Assembly: GCF_030167925.1 (NCBI RefSeq)
Contig: NZ_JASKUT010000001.1
Location: forward strand, 3,224,001-3,288,000
Reading direction: 5' to 3'
Source: Paenibacillus silviterrae
GTDB taxonomy: Bacteria > Bacillota > Bacilli > Paenibacillales > NBRC-103111
DNA length: 64,000 bases
The position numbers and the translations under genes are program-made. Below are positions 25,465-61,781 of this stretch, one piece after another. The notes under the pieces were generated by a model. That model saw only the letters and a program-made list of their open reading frames with translations, was not told the origin of the DNA and made no database searches. The stretch's first letter is position 1; the number at the start of each line of letters is the position of its first letter.

Positions 25465-26535
25465 CTACATTATTCCTTTCAAATCATTAAATGTTGGCGT
25501 TAGTAATGGAACAATTTGAAACGGATGCTCTGAGTCAATAACCTGTATCAATCCCGTCCCGATTCCTTGCGGTATAACTATTCCTTCAAGTGACAAATCT
25601 GGGAACAAAAACTGTGTCGTTTTGCTATTTATATTGCCCACTTGGATTAGTACATTAAGTTGTTCTCTGCAAGAAATAGGAATGGCATTACTATCAAATC
25701 TCTGCGATACCAGTAGCAAATGAACTTTTGTAGCCCTGCCTAACAATGCAATTTGTGATAGTAGACTAAAGAACGCCTCTTTAATCGGCTTGGCAGTCCC
25801 ATCTGATAGAGCCAGAACCTCGTCAATGACCAGCGTGTAGTGTTCAAAGTCGGCTTGAGGGTTATTGTAAAGCACCTGTTGCCGCTGGTGAATTAGCTCC
25901 AAGCTCTTGCTAAGTTCGGCATTCACACTTGAAACATAATCGCTTTTGTTACGATTATCGCTTGGGGCAATAACCTTAACGTTGTTCTCCCTGCCCCATC
26001 TACTTGGCATATCAAATTTAGGGTCTACAATTACTAGCTTCGAGCTCTTCTTCAATACGCATAGAAGGTAGGTGAGGAAATAAGATTTACCTGACCCTGA
26101 ATTTCCTGCGATAGCAATACTTGTAACCTTATTTAGGTTGAACTCGAAATTTTCCATGACAGGCACTTTGTTCGCTGGTAATTTCGCAACATATTCGTCA
26201 ATGTCCCGAATAACCAATCGCTTAGAAATACCATTTATCCACGGGAAGAAAAGAGCACGTTTCATATGGATATCATCCGTTTTCAATGGGACAAAATAAG
26301 CTCCCGCTTGTTTTATTAACGTAAAATCGGGGTATAGAGCTGCGTTACTAATAAGATAGATTTTTTGATAAAGGTCGTTATCGACGACATAGCTTGCAGG
26401 GAGGCGGGGGATGAAGAAAATGCCTTCATCCGCCACTCGAACATCAAACGAATTTGTGTAAGAGGTCTCTCCGTTAATCTGCAGAGCCATGTTCAGAGCC
26501 TGGAGCAAGTAGCCTTCAAGTTCTGATTTTTTCAT
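25465..26535 (-). CDS. FtsK/SpoIIIE-like DNA-translocating ATPase (TcpA-type coupling protein)
   Basis: About 356 residues from the ATG at 26535, which overlaps the end of the preceding gene; a longer frame to 26586 exists. Walker A AIAGNSGSGKSYFLTYLL, KLVIVDPKFD, Walker B HYTLVIDEVLAL and the later LGRATKVHLLLVSQRFDSNAIPISCREQ mark the FtsK/HerA translocase family. No N-terminal membrane helices are seen, so it may rely on the small membrane protein downstream. In related elements this ATPase delivers the Rep-nicked strand to a conjugation pore. Confidence 0.87.
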   Translation of the reverse strand: MKKSELEGYLLQALNMALQINGETSYTNSFDVRVADEGIFFIPRLPASYVVDNDLYQKIYLISNAALYPDFTLIKQAGAYFVPLKTDDIHMKRALFFPWINGISKRLVIRDIDEYVAKLPANKVPVMENFEFNLNKVTSIAIAGNSGSGKSYFLTYLLCVLKKSSKLVIVDPKFDMPSRWGRENNVKVIAPSDNRNKSDYVSSVNAELSKSLELIHQRQQVLYNNPQADFEHYTLVIDEVLALSDGTAKPIKEAFFSLLSQIALLGRATKVHLLLVSQRFDSNAIPISCREQLNVLIQVGNINSKTTQFLFPDLSLEGIVIPQGIGTGLIQVIDSEHPFQIVPLLTPTFNDLKGIM

Positions 26536-57181: not shown

Positions 57182-57196
57182 CGGCTCCCTGATTTG

Positions 57197-57221
57197 GTTC
57201 ATCGCCGGCCAAAGCGGGTAA
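57197..57221 (+). promoter_or_regulatory. Candidate SigB-type promoter of glsB
   Basis: GTTCAT, 13 nt, GGGTAA. The -10 is a full match to the SigB consensus GGGTAW and the -35 fits GTTT except one base. It lies 49 nt before the start of the GlsB-like gene. Confidence 0.6.
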
Positions 57222-57269
57222 TATCAGGACAAGCGAAATCATCTTACGTGATGAAAGGAGCTGCTTGCC

Positions 57270-57530
57270 ATGATGAGCTTGCTGATTACTCTGCTGATGG
57301 CGATGGTGATCGGAACCGTAGGTTCAGCCGTTGCACCGGGCACCATGCCCGGCGGTATTCTCGGCGCTATGCTGGCCGGCTTCGTCGGCGCTTGGATCGG
57401 CTATTGGCTGCTTGGGTCGTGGGGACCGGTCATTGCCGGCTTTGCGGTTATTCCCTCCGTGCTCGGCGCGGCGCTGTTTACCCTTCTGCTCGGTCTGATT
57501 TCCCGAGGCTCCGCGAACCGGAGAGCCTGA
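57270..57530 (+). CDS. GlsB/YeaQ/YmgE family stress membrane protein
   Basis: 86 residues with three hydrophobic segments and the Gly-rich pattern (VIGTVGSAVAPGTMPGGILGAMLAGFVGAWIGYWLLG) of the transglycosylase-associated YeaQ family. The function is not established; members are often stress induced, which fits the SigB-like promoter upstream. AAAGGAG lies 9 nt before the ATG; a terminator follows at 57541. Confidence 0.88.
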   Translation: MMSLLITLLMAMVIGTVGSAVAPGTMPGGILGAMLAGFVGAWIGYWLLGSWGPVIAGFAVIPSVLGAALFTLLLGLISRGSANRRA

Positions 57531-57540
57531 TGATGGATAA

Positions 57541-57582
57541 GCGGTTATTCCTCTTGGAGACCGGGGGAGAACCGCTTTTTTG
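57541..57582 (+). terminator. Terminator after the GlsB-like gene
   Basis: GCGGTT / AACCGC outer stem with inner pairing (CTCTTGG..CCGGGGGAG) and six Ts on the plus strand. Confidence 0.85.
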
Positions 57583-57595
57583 TTACGAAACGGCA

Positions 57596-57628
57596 CAAAG
57601 AAAACACGCCCCCTAGTAAGGACGTGTT
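57596..57628 (-). terminator. Terminator after sigB
   Basis: AACACGTCC / GGGCGTGTT stem followed by TTCTTTG on the minus strand, immediately after the sigB stop. Confidence 0.75.
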
Positions 57629-58408
57629 CTACGATTCCTTCCTTCCGGCAGACTCCTGGAAGAACGCCTTCAGCTTATCCAGGGCCCGCTTCTGGATCCG
57701 GGACACGCTCATCTGCGATACGTTCAGCTGCGCCGCAATCGTCCGCTGAGACTGCCCCTCGACATAGGCAAGCTGGAGTACCTTCTGCTCCTCCGGCTTA
57801 AGATGAACCAGCGCCTCCTGTAGATCCAATCGCGTTTCGACCAGCTGGTAAGCGTCGCTTAAGGAGCCGATCACATCGCCGATGGTCGATCCGTTATCCT
57901 CCGACGACAGCGGCGTGTCCAGCGAAACATAATGATAATATTCGCGGCCGGCCAAAATTTCGATCGTCTCCTCCACCGACAGCCCCATCTCCGCAGCGAT
58001 TTCGTCGACATTCGGCGACCGTTCCAGGCGCACCGTCAGCGTGTCGATAATTTGCTGAATCTGATTTCCTTTTTCCTTGATCCGCCGAGGCACCTGCACA
58101 TACCAGGATTTATCGCGGAGATAATTTTTCATATGGCCGATGACACTCTTCATCATATATGCCTCGAACTGTACGCCCAAGGAAAAATCAAATTGCTTCA
58201 AAAGGCGAAGCACAGACATCTGCCCCACTTGGTAGAGGTCCTCGAAGAGATCGGGGCGATTGCGCGACATTTTGCCGGCTGCCATTTTCACCATTGGTTC
58301 GTAATGCTGCAGCAAGACGGTCGCGGTTTCGTTGCAGCCCGTCTTCTGATAGTGGAGTATCAACTCCTCAGCGCGCTGGCCTTCGAATCGCTCCGAGTGC
58401 ATATTCAT
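57629..58408 (-). CDS. sigB: General stress sigma factor SigB-type
   Basis: 259 residues. Regions 2 to 4 of the SigB/SigF group are clear: FEDLYQVGQMSVLRLLKQFDFSLGVQFEAYMMKSVIGHMKNYLRDKSW, the region 3 helices (PRRIKEKGNQIQQIIDTL) and region 4 (LKPEEQKVLQLAYVEGQSQRTIAAQLNVSQMSVSRIQKRALDKLK). The start overlaps the rsbW stop by 4 nt and has a GAGG site. In this family RsbW holds the sigma factor inactive until RsbV is dephosphorylated. It could in principle be a SigF-type sporulation factor, but gene order and promoters favour SigB. Confidence 0.9.
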   Translation of the reverse strand: MNMHSERFEGQRAEELILHYQKTGCNETATVLLQHYEPMVKMAAGKMSRNRPDLFEDLYQVGQMSVLRLLKQFDFSLGVQFEAYMMKSVIGHMKNYLRDKSWYVQVPRRIKEKGNQIQQIIDTLTVRLERSPNVDEIAAEMGLSVEETIEILAGREYYHYVSLDTPLSSEDNGSTIGDVIGSLSDAYQLVETRLDLQEALVHLKPEEQKVLQLAYVEGQSQRTIAAQLNVSQMSVSRIQKRALDKLKAFFQESAGRKES

Positions 58409-58848
58409 ACCATTTCCTCACTTTGGCTGACCGTCTTCGTCAGAATCACCTCGGTGCCGTTGCCGGTTTTTACTTCGACGTGATCCATCAGAGCCTGCAT
58501 CAGATAAATACCGAGCCCGCCTACATTGATTTCGTTCAAGCTCTTGTCGTGCAGCGAGCCGGCCTTGCTCGCTTTCTCGGCGTAATCGAAGCTCGGTCCT
58601 TGATCCTTCACGGAAATGCTCAGTGCAGAGCCCACGCGCTCGAAGCATACTTCCATGCTGCCGGGCATCCCCGGGTCATAGGCATGAACAACCACATTAT
58701 TGCATGCCTCGGCGACAGCCACCTTCATGTCCTCGATTTCCTCATAGGAGAATCCGAGCTTGGAAGCGATGCCGTACAGCGTAAGCCGGACCAGATCAAT
58801 ATATTCCGCCTGTGCGGGTACGGTCAAATGTACTTTTTCCGGTTTCAT
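58405..58848 (-). CDS. rsbW: Anti-sigma B factor / serine kinase RsbW
   Basis: 147 residues with the GHKL kinase motifs: N-box MKVAVAEACNNVVVHAY, DQGPSFDY (G1) and NVGGLGIYLMQALMD (G2). RsbW binds SigB and phosphorylates RsbV; the two partner genes flank it. Confidence 0.93.
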   Translation of the reverse strand: MKPEKVHLTVPAQAEYIDLVRLTLYGIASKLGFSYEEIEDMKVAVAEACNNVVVHAYDPGMPGSMEVCFERVGSALSISVKDQGPSFDYAEKASKAGSLHDKSLNEINVGGLGIYLMQALMDHVEVKTGNGTEVILTKTVSQSEEMV

Positions 58849-58892
58849 ACTCTCGCTTCGATCCTTTCTATAACCGTTAATTGGGCCGTGCC

Positions 58893-59228
58893 TCAGCTGG
58901 CGTTGGTCTCGCTTATATGCAAGAACGGCGTGATGCCGGTCAAGTCGAACAGGCGTTTAATTTTGGGAGGAATCTCCTCCACCCGAAATTCGGCCTTCAG
59001 CACATCCCTTGCCTTCAACACCGATACAATCACACCGATCCCGGTGCTGTCAATGTATTGGAGCTGCTTCAGGTTCAAAACCAGCCTGCGATCGGTATCC
59101 GCAACGAAGGGGTCAAGCGCCTGCCGCAAATCGCCCACCTTGGACAAGTCCAGCTCCCCCTGCAGGGAAACGATATTCGCAAGCTCCGTTCGTTCCGTTT
59201 GTAATTGAAAGTCACGGTCTGGAGTCAT
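58893..59228 (-). CDS. rsbV: Anti-sigma factor antagonist RsbV
   Basis: About 111 residues from the ATG at 59228 (GGAGG 6 nt upstream). STAS domain with the phosphoacceptor serine in LQYIDSTGIGVIVSVL. Unphosphorylated RsbV captures RsbW and frees SigB. First gene of the operon; a SigB-type promoter lies directly upstream at 59268-59293. Confidence 0.93.
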   Translation of the reverse strand: MTPDRDFQLQTERTELANIVSLQGELDLSKVGDLRQALDPFVADTDRRLVLNLKQLQYIDSTGIGVIVSVLKARDVLKAEFRVEEIPPKIKRLFDLTGITPFLHISETNAS

Positions 59229-59267
59229 TGGTTGCCTCCACCTCCACATGTACTCATTCTCCTATTC

Positions 59268-59293
59268 TTAACCGGATTTCCGCCTATTGAAAC
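59268..59293 (-). promoter_or_regulatory. SigB-type promoter of the rsbV-rsbW-sigB operon
   Basis: On the minus strand GTTTCA, 14 nt, GGTTAA: consensus spacing and near-consensus boxes (GTTTWW / GGGTAW). It lies 40 nt before rsbV, so the operon probably autoregulates, as in B. subtilis. Confidence 0.7.
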
Positions 59294-59307
59294 ATCGGCT
59301 TGCCCCT

Positions 59308-59333
59308 GTTTCGCTCCTCTGTTCTGAGGTTAA
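59308..59333 (+). promoter_or_regulatory. SigB-type promoter of dps
   Basis: On the plus strand GTTTCG, 14 nt, GGTTAA, divergent from the rsbV promoter and only 14 nt from it. The -10 box is identical. The dps gene starts 117 nt downstream. Confidence 0.6.
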
Positions 59334-59450
59334 ATTATGGACAAGCGGACACGAGACCAAGTGTTCGCTGTGATACGGACGGTCCGGGTGCTGCTGCGCC
59401 GATCCGGGCTGTCCGCCCATCTTTTCGAATGGATAAGGAGGACTCTGAAG

Positions 59451-59912
59451 ATGACAAATCAAACATTGGCGGCAAACCAAGTAGAACTGAATCGATTGCT
59501 GAACCGACAGGTGGCGAATTGGGCTGTACTCTACATAAAGATTCACCAATACCATTGGTTTGTCAAAGGAGCCTACTTCTTTCAGCTGCATACGAAGTTC
59601 GAGGAGCTGTACCAGGAGGCGGACCGCTTTCTGGACGAGCTGGCGGAGCGGGTGCTGGCGCTCGGCGGCATCCCGTTCTCGACGATGAGAGAATTTATGG
59701 AGGCTGCCTCGATCCGGGAGGATAGCCATGACCTGTCGGCGGAACGGATGGTAATACAGCTTACGGACGATTTCCGCCAATTGCTCGGAGAATTGACGGA
59801 AACGATGGCAGCGGCGGAGGATGCGCATGACGAAGGAACGATCGATCTGCTGGTGGACATTCGATCCAAGCTGGAGAAGCATGTCTGGATGCTGCAGTCC
59901 TTTGTAGACTAA
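59451..59912 (+). CDS. dps: Dps-family ferritin-like DNA-protection protein
   Basis: About 153 residues from the ATG at 59451 (AGGAGG 9 nt upstream); the open frame before it is unlikely. The inter-subunit ferroxidase residues are present: NWAVLYIKIHQYHWFVKG (His) and FEELYQEADRFLDELAERVLALGG (Asp, Glu). Dps dodecamers oxidise and store iron and coat DNA during stress. The SigB-like promoter 5' of the gene fits the known SigB control of dps in Bacillus. Confidence 0.93.
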   Translation: MTNQTLAANQVELNRLLNRQVANWAVLYIKIHQYHWFVKGAYFFQLHTKFEELYQEADRFLDELAERVLALGGIPFSTMREFMEAASIREDSHDLSAERMVIQLTDDFRQLLGELTETMAAAEDAHDEGTIDLLVDIRSKLEKHVWMLQSFVD

Positions 59913-60083: not shown

Positions 60084-61781
60084 ATGCTCTCTGTCCTGTA
60101 TCTTAATGCAGCTTTGCTGCTTTCCCACATGTTTTTGATTCATCGCCTCAATCATACATTGCAAAGGTACAGACAGGATGTACGGTACAGTTCGATGGTT
60201 TACGGGATCCTTTACGGCATCGTTGGCAATCTTCTCATGTATTACTCGATCCATTTACAGGACGGGGGCATTCTTGACCTTCGTTTCCTTTCTATTATGC
60301 TCGCGGGGAAACTAGGCGGCTTTCCAGGCGCTCTGATCAGCTCCCTCATTGTCGCCGCGGGCCGGATTCTGCTGTTCCCCCTATCCGAGGCCGCGGTCAC
60401 AAGTTCCCTGCTTACCGTCGTCGGTGGAGTCGCAACCGCTATCTTAGCGTATTTCTACCGGTCCCTTCGTCTAAGTCATTGGGTTCTGCTGATGTTTTTT
60501 TATCTTGCCGCTTCCATTATCGGCTTTACGTTCCTCCTTACGTCCCGTGAGCTTTTAACGACCATCATCATCGAGTTCATCATCTTCAATACCTCCGTCG
60601 GAAGCATGGCTTATTATTTTTGCGTCTATTTAGAAAACGCGGAAAAGGCTCGGGAGAAGCTGCAGCGCAGCAGCCGAACCGATGCCTTGACCGGCTTAAG
60701 CAATTTTCGGGGACTTCAATCGCAGCTGCAAGCTCTGCTTAAGCGAACCTCCTCATCGAAGATTTCCCCTCACCTTTTCCTGCTGGACGGCAAAGAGACC
60801 CGGCTTTTGAACGTCAAGCTCGGATACAAGGAAGTTAACCGGCTGTTAGTCCTTACGGCAGAGGTGCTTCAGGAGTATTTGCCCGGGGCTTATTCGATTG
60901 CCCGATATAACGGGGACAAGTTTGTCATTCTCATCGACGGCCTTCAGCAGCAAAGAACCCGTCATTTTCTTCTTCATGAATTGCCGAGGTATTGCGGTCT
61001 GCAGTTCGAAACCTTGTCCTTGGAGCTAAGAGCCGGGATTTCCGAGCAAGAGATTGTCGCCGTCATGGAGGATCAGATGCTCATGAGCAAGAAGGAGCGA
61101 TGGAAGAAAGAAGAGGAGCGGCTCTTGCACAATGAGAAGCTCAAAACCGTGGGTGAACTGGCAGCAGGACTAGCCCACGAAATTCGCAATCCGCTCACCT
61201 CCGTGAAAGGCTTCCTCCAGATCGGGAAGCAGCAGGGCGATGTAGGCAAATATTACGACATCATCCTGGAGGAGGTGGGCCGAATGAATGAGCTGACCAA
61301 AGAGTTCCTGCAATTCTCCAGACCGAATGCCGCCGATGTCATGAGCATCGCTTTGCTGGAATGCGTCAACAGAGCTTTGCAGCTAGCGGAATCCCAGGCA
61401 CTGCGTCTCGGGCATCAATTGCAGTGGGAGGGCGCTTCGGCAGCGATCACCGTGCAGGCGGATCCGAACAAGCTGGTGCAGGTACTGCTGAACCTGATGC
61501 AGAACGGACTGGAGGCGATGCCGGAGTCCGGTACCTTGCGCGTTACGATGTATGAGAGCCCGGAACGGTTCGCCGTGGTGGAAATCACCGACACCGGCAC
61601 CGGGATCCCGGAGGATCAGCTGGAGCAAATTTTCCATCCTTTCTTCAGCACCAAGGAATCGGGAACCGGCCTCGGCTTATCCATCTGCCAGAAGATCATT
61701 CAGGACCACCAGGGCACCCTCCGCGTCCGCAGCAAGGTTGGCTTGGGTACCACCTTTACCCTTAGCCTTCCGTGTGCGTAG
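60084..61781 (+). CDS. Sensor histidine kinase with LytS-like membrane domain and degenerate GGDEF domain
   Basis: 565 residues. Residues 1-185: about six membrane helices resembling the 5TMR-LYT sensor (LDLRFLSIMLAGKLGGFPGALISSLIVAAGRILLF). Residues 195-345: a diguanylate-cyclase-like domain (TDALTGLSNFRGLQSQL) whose active loop reads ARYNGDKFVI, so GGDEF is changed to NGDKF and it is probably not a cyclase. Residues 365-430: HisKA with the phospho-His in ELAAGLAHEIRNPLTSVKGFLQ. Residues 460-563: HATPase (NLMQNGLEAMPESG, DTGTGIPEDQLEQIFHPFFSTKESGTGLGLSICQKII). No response regulator gene is adjacent. The GGDEF-like part could bind a nucleotide as a sensor. Confidence 0.9.
   Translation: MLSVLYLNAALLLSHMFLIHRLNHTLQRYRQDVRYSSMVYGILYGIVGNLLMYYSIHLQDGGILDLRFLSIMLAGKLGGFPGALISSLIVAAGRILLFPLSEAAVTSSLLTVVGGVATAILAYFYRSLRLSHWVLLMFFYLAASIIGFTFLLTSRELLTTIIIEFIIFNTSVGSMAYYFCVYLENAEKAREKLQRSSRTDALTGLSNFRGLQSQLQALLKRTSSSKISPHLFLLDGKETRLLNVKLGYKEVNRLLVLTAEVLQEYLPGAYSIARYNGDKFVILIDGLQQQRTRHFLLHELPRYCGLQFETLSLELRAGISEQEIVAVMEDQMLMSKKERWKKEEERLLHNEKLKTVGELAAGLAHEIRNPLTSVKGFLQIGKQQGDVGKYYDIILEEVGRMNELTKEFLQFSRPNAADVMSIALLECVNRALQLAESQALRLGHQLQWEGASAAITVQADPNKLVQVLLNLMQNGLEAMPESGTLRVTMYESPERFAVVEITDTGTGIPEDQLEQIFHPFFSTKESGTGLGLSICQKIIQDHQGTLRVRSKVGLGTTFTLSLPCA

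Follow-up and report, generated by a model that had tools for sequence, protein, structure and literature searches.

In Bacillus cereus, RsbY is phosphorylated by RsbK and in turn dephosphorylates RsbV, as the relevant sections of PMC7522486 describe, and RsbK is methylated by RsbM (PMC4574943, in its corresponding part). The same mechanism is also covered in part of PMC9912610. For the Bacillales, the text of PMC9847131 gives the SigB motif KTTTW-N12-17-GGGWAW and reports, from an in silico analysis of two Paenibacillus genomes, sigB, rsbV, rsbW, rsbKY, and rsbM, as well as RsbQP. In the open-access library searched, SigB control in Paenibacillus was found treated only in silico. RsbKYM in Paenibacillus is already published there, and what is new here is its placement, not the path itself; the relevant passages of that article mention no promoter pair, dps or GlsB-like target, or RsbW2 for this genus. 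Mycobacterium smegmatis provides a further point of reference in RsbW3, which the pertinent part of PMC7693655 describes as a kinase-less antagonist acting through RsbW1.

The window analyzed here is a stretch of 64,000 nucleotides (C1:3224001-3288000) within the 7.44-Mb genome of Paenibacillus silviterrae, and the relatives compared with it are Paenibacillus. It carries an rsbV-rsbW-sigB operon, a divergent dps gene, and a convergent gene for a GlsB-like protein (Table 1). We read these genes, with a probability of about 0.75, as the general-stress switch of Paenibacillus together with its nearest targets, receiving RsbK-RsbM-RsbY input.

Table 1. Features of the sigB region and of the candidate input genes. 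Positions are those of the window unless marked C1 (contig) or L073 (locus).
Feature	Position	Strand	Product or motif	Basis or remark
GlsB-like promoter, SigB-type	57196..57221	+	GGTTCA-14-GGGTAA	
GlsB/YeaQ-like gene	57270..57530	+	small membrane protein, 86 aa	PF04226, 28.8 bits (cut-off 25.3)
Putative terminator	57539..57581	+	inverted repeat with T run	3' of GlsB-like gene, between convergent glsB and sigB; by eye
sigB-type sigma factor	57629..58408	-	259 aa	best NCBIfam model TIGR02941 SigB
rsbW	58405..58848	-	anti-SigB factor and kinase, 147 aa	NF003144, 174.7 bits (cut-off 145)
rsbV	58893..59228	-	anti-sigma-factor antagonist, 111 aa	STAS PF01740; NCBIfam superfamily ant_ant_sig above cut-off
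rsbVW-sigB promoter, SigB-type	59268..59293	-	GTTTCA-14-GGTTAA	
dps promoter, SigB-type	59308..59333	+	GTTTCG-14-GGTTAA	
dps	59451..59912	+	ferritin-like DNA-protection protein, 153 aa	PF00210; start by eye from ribosome-binding site
rsbW2	C1:3291596-3292060 (L073:3596-4060)			just outside window, about 8 kb from dps
rsbV2	L073:4057-4422 (with rsbW2, C1:3291596-3292422)			DSTG phospho-acceptor motif kept
rsbY candidate (P0006)	C1:3300894-3302123	sigB strand	receiver + PP2C	PF00072 and PF07228 above cut-off
rsbK candidate	after rsbY	sigB strand	hybrid kinase, 1211 residues	4HB_MCP_1, HAMP, GAF, HisKA, HATPase, three receivers
rsbM candidate	beside kinase	sigB strand	CheR methyltransferase	PF01739 and PF03705 above cut-off

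The order rsbV-rsbW-sigB is retained in relatives, and together with an RsbW that scores above the NF003144 cut-off it identifies the operon as a SigB partner switch. RsbW passes one of the two RsbW models, falling about 5 bits short of the other (TIGR01924, 149.7 bits against a cut-off of 155.05). The sigma factor does not reach the cut-off of the SigB equivalog (203.1 bits against 315), which is still its top match among all NCBIfam models, and its closest solved structure is 8x6g chain H; judged by its sequence, it is a divergent SigB. The GlsB-like protein has no match among the NCBIfam models. For rsbV, a start at 59249 was dropped in favor of the tabulated one, which is preceded by GGAGG as judged by eye, and for dps an upstream in-frame ATG at 59337 would precede a start made from the dps promoter. 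A membrane histidine kinase gene follows dps on the plus strand (60084-61781), with no response regulator noticed beside it.

A first-pass annotation had proposed a local SigB regulon from three promoter-like motifs. The rsbV and dps sites exist exactly as described there, are conserved in relatives and top-ranked by a matrix built from them, and are indeed divergent and nearly touching, with 14 bp separating their -35 hexamers. The third motif marks a real site read one base out of register: the annotated GTTCAT-13-GGGTAA is correctly GGTTCA-14-GGGTAA, and all three sites have a common spacer of 14 bases. Perfect sites with this spacer occur twice in the window against 0.225 expected, while sites with at most one mismatch number 10 against 6.4 expected (40 first-order Markov shuffles in each case), which leaves the GlsB-like site at chance level by the window alone. 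Window statistics therefore serve the rsbV/dps pair but not the GlsB-like site, and relatives were compared for this reason.

Across the whole genome, the strict pattern GTTTCR-14-GGKTAA occurs 11 times, the rsbV/dps pair accounting for two of these, and its reversed control 0 times; the looser GTTT-N13-17-GGGTAA gives no signal (59 matches against 79 in the reversed control). A same-strand frame begins 39-58 nt past the -10 box at three further strict sites (L192, L196, and L199) and 240 nt past it at L195, and the remaining five (L001, L193, L194, L200, and L201) fall within frames or lack a clear target. The perfect site at L196 (C1:3160501-3160526, minus strand) lies 58 nt before a histidine-kinase-like gene whose frame seems also to include a STAS domain. 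At L194 (C1:2978277-2978302, minus strand), a perfect site is located within a kinase-like gene, 3' of a small RsbT-sized HATPase gene, in an area that also has a STAS match.

Among 117 genomes, thresholded matches number 84 for sigB, 108 for dps, and 59 for the GlsB-like gene, and the best 30 loci of each were examined, with the genome's own copies left out of the site counts and 50 shuffles as control. The rsbV site is perfect in 26 of 28 relatives (shuffled 0.00) and present in 27 of 28 when one mismatch and a spacer of 13-15 are allowed; locus L063, in which no rsbV aligned, was left out of this count, and an earlier site scan had found two relatives, L048 and L057, without the site. At the GlsB-like gene, which 27 of 29 relatives have on the same contig as sigB and no more than about 9 kb from it, a site with at most one mismatch occurs in 29 of 29 relatives (shuffled 0.42) and is perfect in 19. 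For dps the outcome depends on position: genes beside sigB have a site with at most one mismatch and a spacer of 13-15 in 9 of 10 cases (shuffled 0.36), 5 of the 10 being perfect at spacer 14, whereas unlinked genes have one in 0 of 19 (shuffled 0.90). Of these unlinked genes, 9 come from genomes in which sigB has no match; in the other 10 cases a sigB match exists but on a different contig. Shuffled means stay at or below 0.96 throughout. The alternates used in scoring were picked after the relatives' sites had been seen, and the relatives do not count as independent samples.

In the relatives' sites, each hexamer base carries 1.1-2.0 bits of information, compared with 0-0.5 for the spacer bases. 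A matrix of 59 distinct orthologous sites from relatives, applied to all positions of the window on both strands, ranks the GlsB-like site first (22.3), the dps site second (20.2), and the rsbV site third (18.9), the next best scoring 15.1; this fourth site, at 26310, lies inside a frame on the opposite strand and was taken as chance. In short, a GTTT-type -35 box, about 14 bases, and a GGGTAA-type -10 box are conserved at orthologous genes, as in SigB promoters, and this conservation supports the proposed regulon of rsbVW-sigB, dps, and the GlsB-like gene. Chance similarity, with dps and the GlsB-like gene driven by SigA or oxidative-stress regulators, would accommodate the GlsB-like site being within chance in the window and the linked dps of one relative having no site, but the counts in relatives, set against shuffled means of 0.00-0.42, and the top three matrix ranks make it very improbable. 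Use of the sites by a related sporulation sigma factor is equally hard to credit. SigF and SigG recognize -10 boxes that resemble those of SigB, and two sigma factors above the SigB/F/G family cut-off are encoded elsewhere in the genome (L015 and L016), one of them beside STAS/HATPase genes; the sites, however, surround sigB, and the dps site goes with sigB linkage. They also match the SigB motif given in the text of PMC9847131. Transcription of rsbV, dps, and the GlsB-like gene is thus expected to depend on SigB.

In wider stretches from relatives, dps is found in 15 of 20 and has a site in 14 of these 15. The opposite site in those 14 is that of a DUF948 (ytxG-like) gene, the -35 boxes being 3-38 bp apart, and the rsbV site lies about 600 bp beyond the dps/DUF948 pair in 13 of 14. 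The DUF948 gene has a SigB-type site in 17 of 17 cases examined. In this genome, where a search run without its own positive control found no DUF948 match, rsbV stands opposite dps in its place. Because the near-touching pair involves DUF948 in 14 relatives and rsbV here, the arrangement appears to be old and its partner to have changed. The only other one of the 20 stretches with dps directly beside rsbV, that of G002 (L184), has the rsbV site but no dps site, which counts against a simple story of the near-touching pair. An earlier view of dps beside sigB as a rare arrangement was rejected, as the first loci were too short and the DUF948 gene intervenes in relatives. By analogy with described systems, the rsbV and dps promoters would be induced together. 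The presence of the dps site only when dps sits beside sigB offers a natural experiment in the recruitment of a gene to a regulon.

Other genes of the cluster were scanned for sites within 300 bases upstream. In this genome glgC has GATTCA-14-GGTTAA upstream (L073:6398-6373; C1:3294373-3294398), and a SigB-type site is found near the glgC start in 14 of 15 relatives, suggesting that glgC may belong to the SigB regulon and that in relatives the local regulon would extend to both the DUF948 gene and glgC. Upstream of rsbY lies a one-mismatch site, GTTTCA-15-GGTTAC (L073:14194-14168), with sites in 6 of 12 relatives, which is only suggestive of regulon membership. Sites occur upstream of orf183 in 1 of 16 cases and of the second kinase in 2 of 17, the latter weak and with spacer 13. 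No site was found upstream of rsbM (0 of 14), of rsbV2 in this genome or in the 13 relatives whose rsbV2 row was genuine, or of rsbK wherever its start fell in the stretch. Rows with a different gene as best match or with the start outside were dropped (rsbV2, L184-L187 and L189-L191; rsbY, L172-L176 and L183; rsbV, L188; rsbK, L176).

The first-pass annotation had also observed that the operon contains no RsbU/RsbX-type phosphatase gene and concluded that the signal path must be coded elsewhere. Indeed, none of the six PP2C matches of the genome falls in the window, and a candidate set lies outside the operon, on the same strand and 14-20 kb from sigB. It consists of a REC-PP2C phosphatase, a hybrid kinase, and a CheR methyltransferase beside the kinase, laid out like B. 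cereus RsbY-RsbK-RsbM, followed by a receiver-kinase protein, glgC, and then the RsbV2-RsbW2 pair. The phosphatase and methyltransferase correspond to the RsbKY-RsbM pattern, while the kinase, which shares HAMP, GAF, HisKA, and HATPase domains with B. cereus RsbK, departs from the B. cereus-type layout of CHASE3 and one receiver in having a 4HB_MCP_1 sensor and three receivers. Of the 117 genomes, 80 have both the REC-PP2C phosphatase and sigB and 30 have neither, while 4 have only sigB and 3 only the phosphatase; these last three matches, at 41-43% identity, may be other genes. Where a relative has both genes on one contig, the phosphatase gene is on the sigB strand, to the 5' side of sigB, without exception (74 of 74), at 1.7-39 kb (median 8.3 kb); six more genomes have the two genes on different contigs. 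Of 80 loci, 52 contain sigB, phosphatase, and methyltransferase within the stretch taken.

From gene content and domain make-up, this set probably forms the signal path. An alternative that accepts the SigB promoters but assigns the input to another PP2C or to an RsbQP-like path draws on the number of PP2C matches in the genome and on a second partner-switch cluster (L074:5319-11045; C1:4255-4261 kb), in which a STAS protein, a small HATPase, a transcription-factor-like protein, and two membrane PP2C phosphatases stand in a row. RsbQP is also given for Paenibacillus in the text of PMC9847131. Such input is improbable: the one phosphatase of that cluster that was traced occurs in 7 genomes with sigB and 6 lacking it (13 of 117 in all) and hence does not track sigB, whereas the REC-PP2C phosphatase does.

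With RsbK, RsbM, and RsbY as the input, the circuit would work as follows. In unstressed cells, RsbW would phosphorylate RsbV and hold SigB. On stress, RsbK, a hybrid kinase subject to adjustment by RsbM, would phosphorylate RsbY, whose PP2C domain would dephosphorylate RsbV; RsbV would then draw RsbW away from SigB. SigB-polymerase would initiate at the rsbV promoter, giving positive feedback, and also at the back-to-back dps promoter and the GlsB-like promoter. Phosphotransfer, signaling direction, SigB dependence, and joint induction are assumed here from B. cereus and B. subtilis. We prefer this explanation because the sites keep their register around a spacer of unconstrained sequence, the dps site appears only beside sigB, and the strict pattern is found 11 times against 0; rsbY co-occurs and links with sigB, and the domains of the three candidates and the B. 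cereus mechanism point the same way. Against it stand the chance-level GlsB-like site in the window, the missed SigB model cut-off, the lack of an rsbV site in L048 and L057 and of a dps site in G002, the four genomes with sigB but no phosphatase, the kinase layout, and the RsbQP reported in the text of PMC9847131. On this reading, a motif sighting becomes a testable Paenibacillus stress circuit with predicted responding genes, start bases, and sensor.

The rsbV-rsbW-sigB system is ordinary for the group, apart from the nearby RsbW2. RsbW2 shares 41-51% identity with 13 counterparts. Its N-box Asn and G1 residues are missing from all 14 genomes examined, and G2 from 13 of the 14. We take these residues to be ATP-binding, with roles known from SpoIIAB. 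An arginine close to where the first long helix begins is invariant. Other second copies differ: sp. P25 has another N-box variant, P. ferrarius and P. alginolyticus are among those keeping N-box and G2, and in G043 all three motifs are kept. In the scan that covered sp. P25, P. ferrarius, and P. alginolyticus, the N-box was relied on, as the G1 test used there is strict and fails also for single RsbW copies of Geobacillus. Purifying selection acts on RsbW2, with dN/dS of 0.13-0.39 (nine pairs) against 0.03-0.13 for RsbW (eight pairs), dS being saturated in some. Its structure model (mean pLDDT 81.5) best matches B. subtilis RsbW 6m37, with a TM score of 0.66 normalized to the query and 0.89 to the target.

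RsbW2 thus seems to have lost kinase activity, and any role in SigB control is a guess. We tentatively suggest a pseudokinase that would be unable to phosphorylate an RsbV, has its fold and conserved arginine intact, and could tune SigB either through pairing with RsbW or through contact with RsbV or SigB. It would then be an ATP-independent brake or booster, resembling M. smegmatis RsbW3 but with a separate origin. If so, a duplicated switch would have turned into a modulator; nothing on point about RsbW as a pseudokinase appeared among the papers listed in the open-access library. According to the relevant part of PMC7693655, RsbW3 has no kinase activity, binds the functional RsbW, and on overproduction leads to higher sigma activity, which is the likeness proposed for RsbW2; it targets SigF and sits in the SigF regulon, however, whereas RsbW2 has no SigB-type site upstream in this genome or the 13 relatives.

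The promoters resemble those described for B. subtilis, where the text of PMC9847131 places GTTTAA-N14-GGGTAT-type SigB sites upstream of rsbV, as here. They fit the Bacillales motif in that text except at position 5, where C replaces A/T, and this C in the -35 box sets the Paenibacillus group apart from B. subtilis. The B. cereus cluster, given as rsbV rsbW sigB bc1005 rsbY rsbM rsbK in the pertinent parts of PMC9912610 and PMC4574943, shares with this locus the rsbV-rsbW-sigB order, a ferritin-family neighbor (bacterioferritin Bc1005 in B. cereus, dps here), and, near sigB, genes for a REC-PP2C protein, a hybrid kinase, and a CheR methyltransferase. Here, however, dps is divergent and upstream, and as described there, the B. 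cereus RsbK has CHASE3 and one receiver in place of 4HB_MCP and three. Unlike in B. cereus, the sensor genes of this genome lie 14-20 kb away from sigB, with RsbV2-RsbW2 and glgC intervening.
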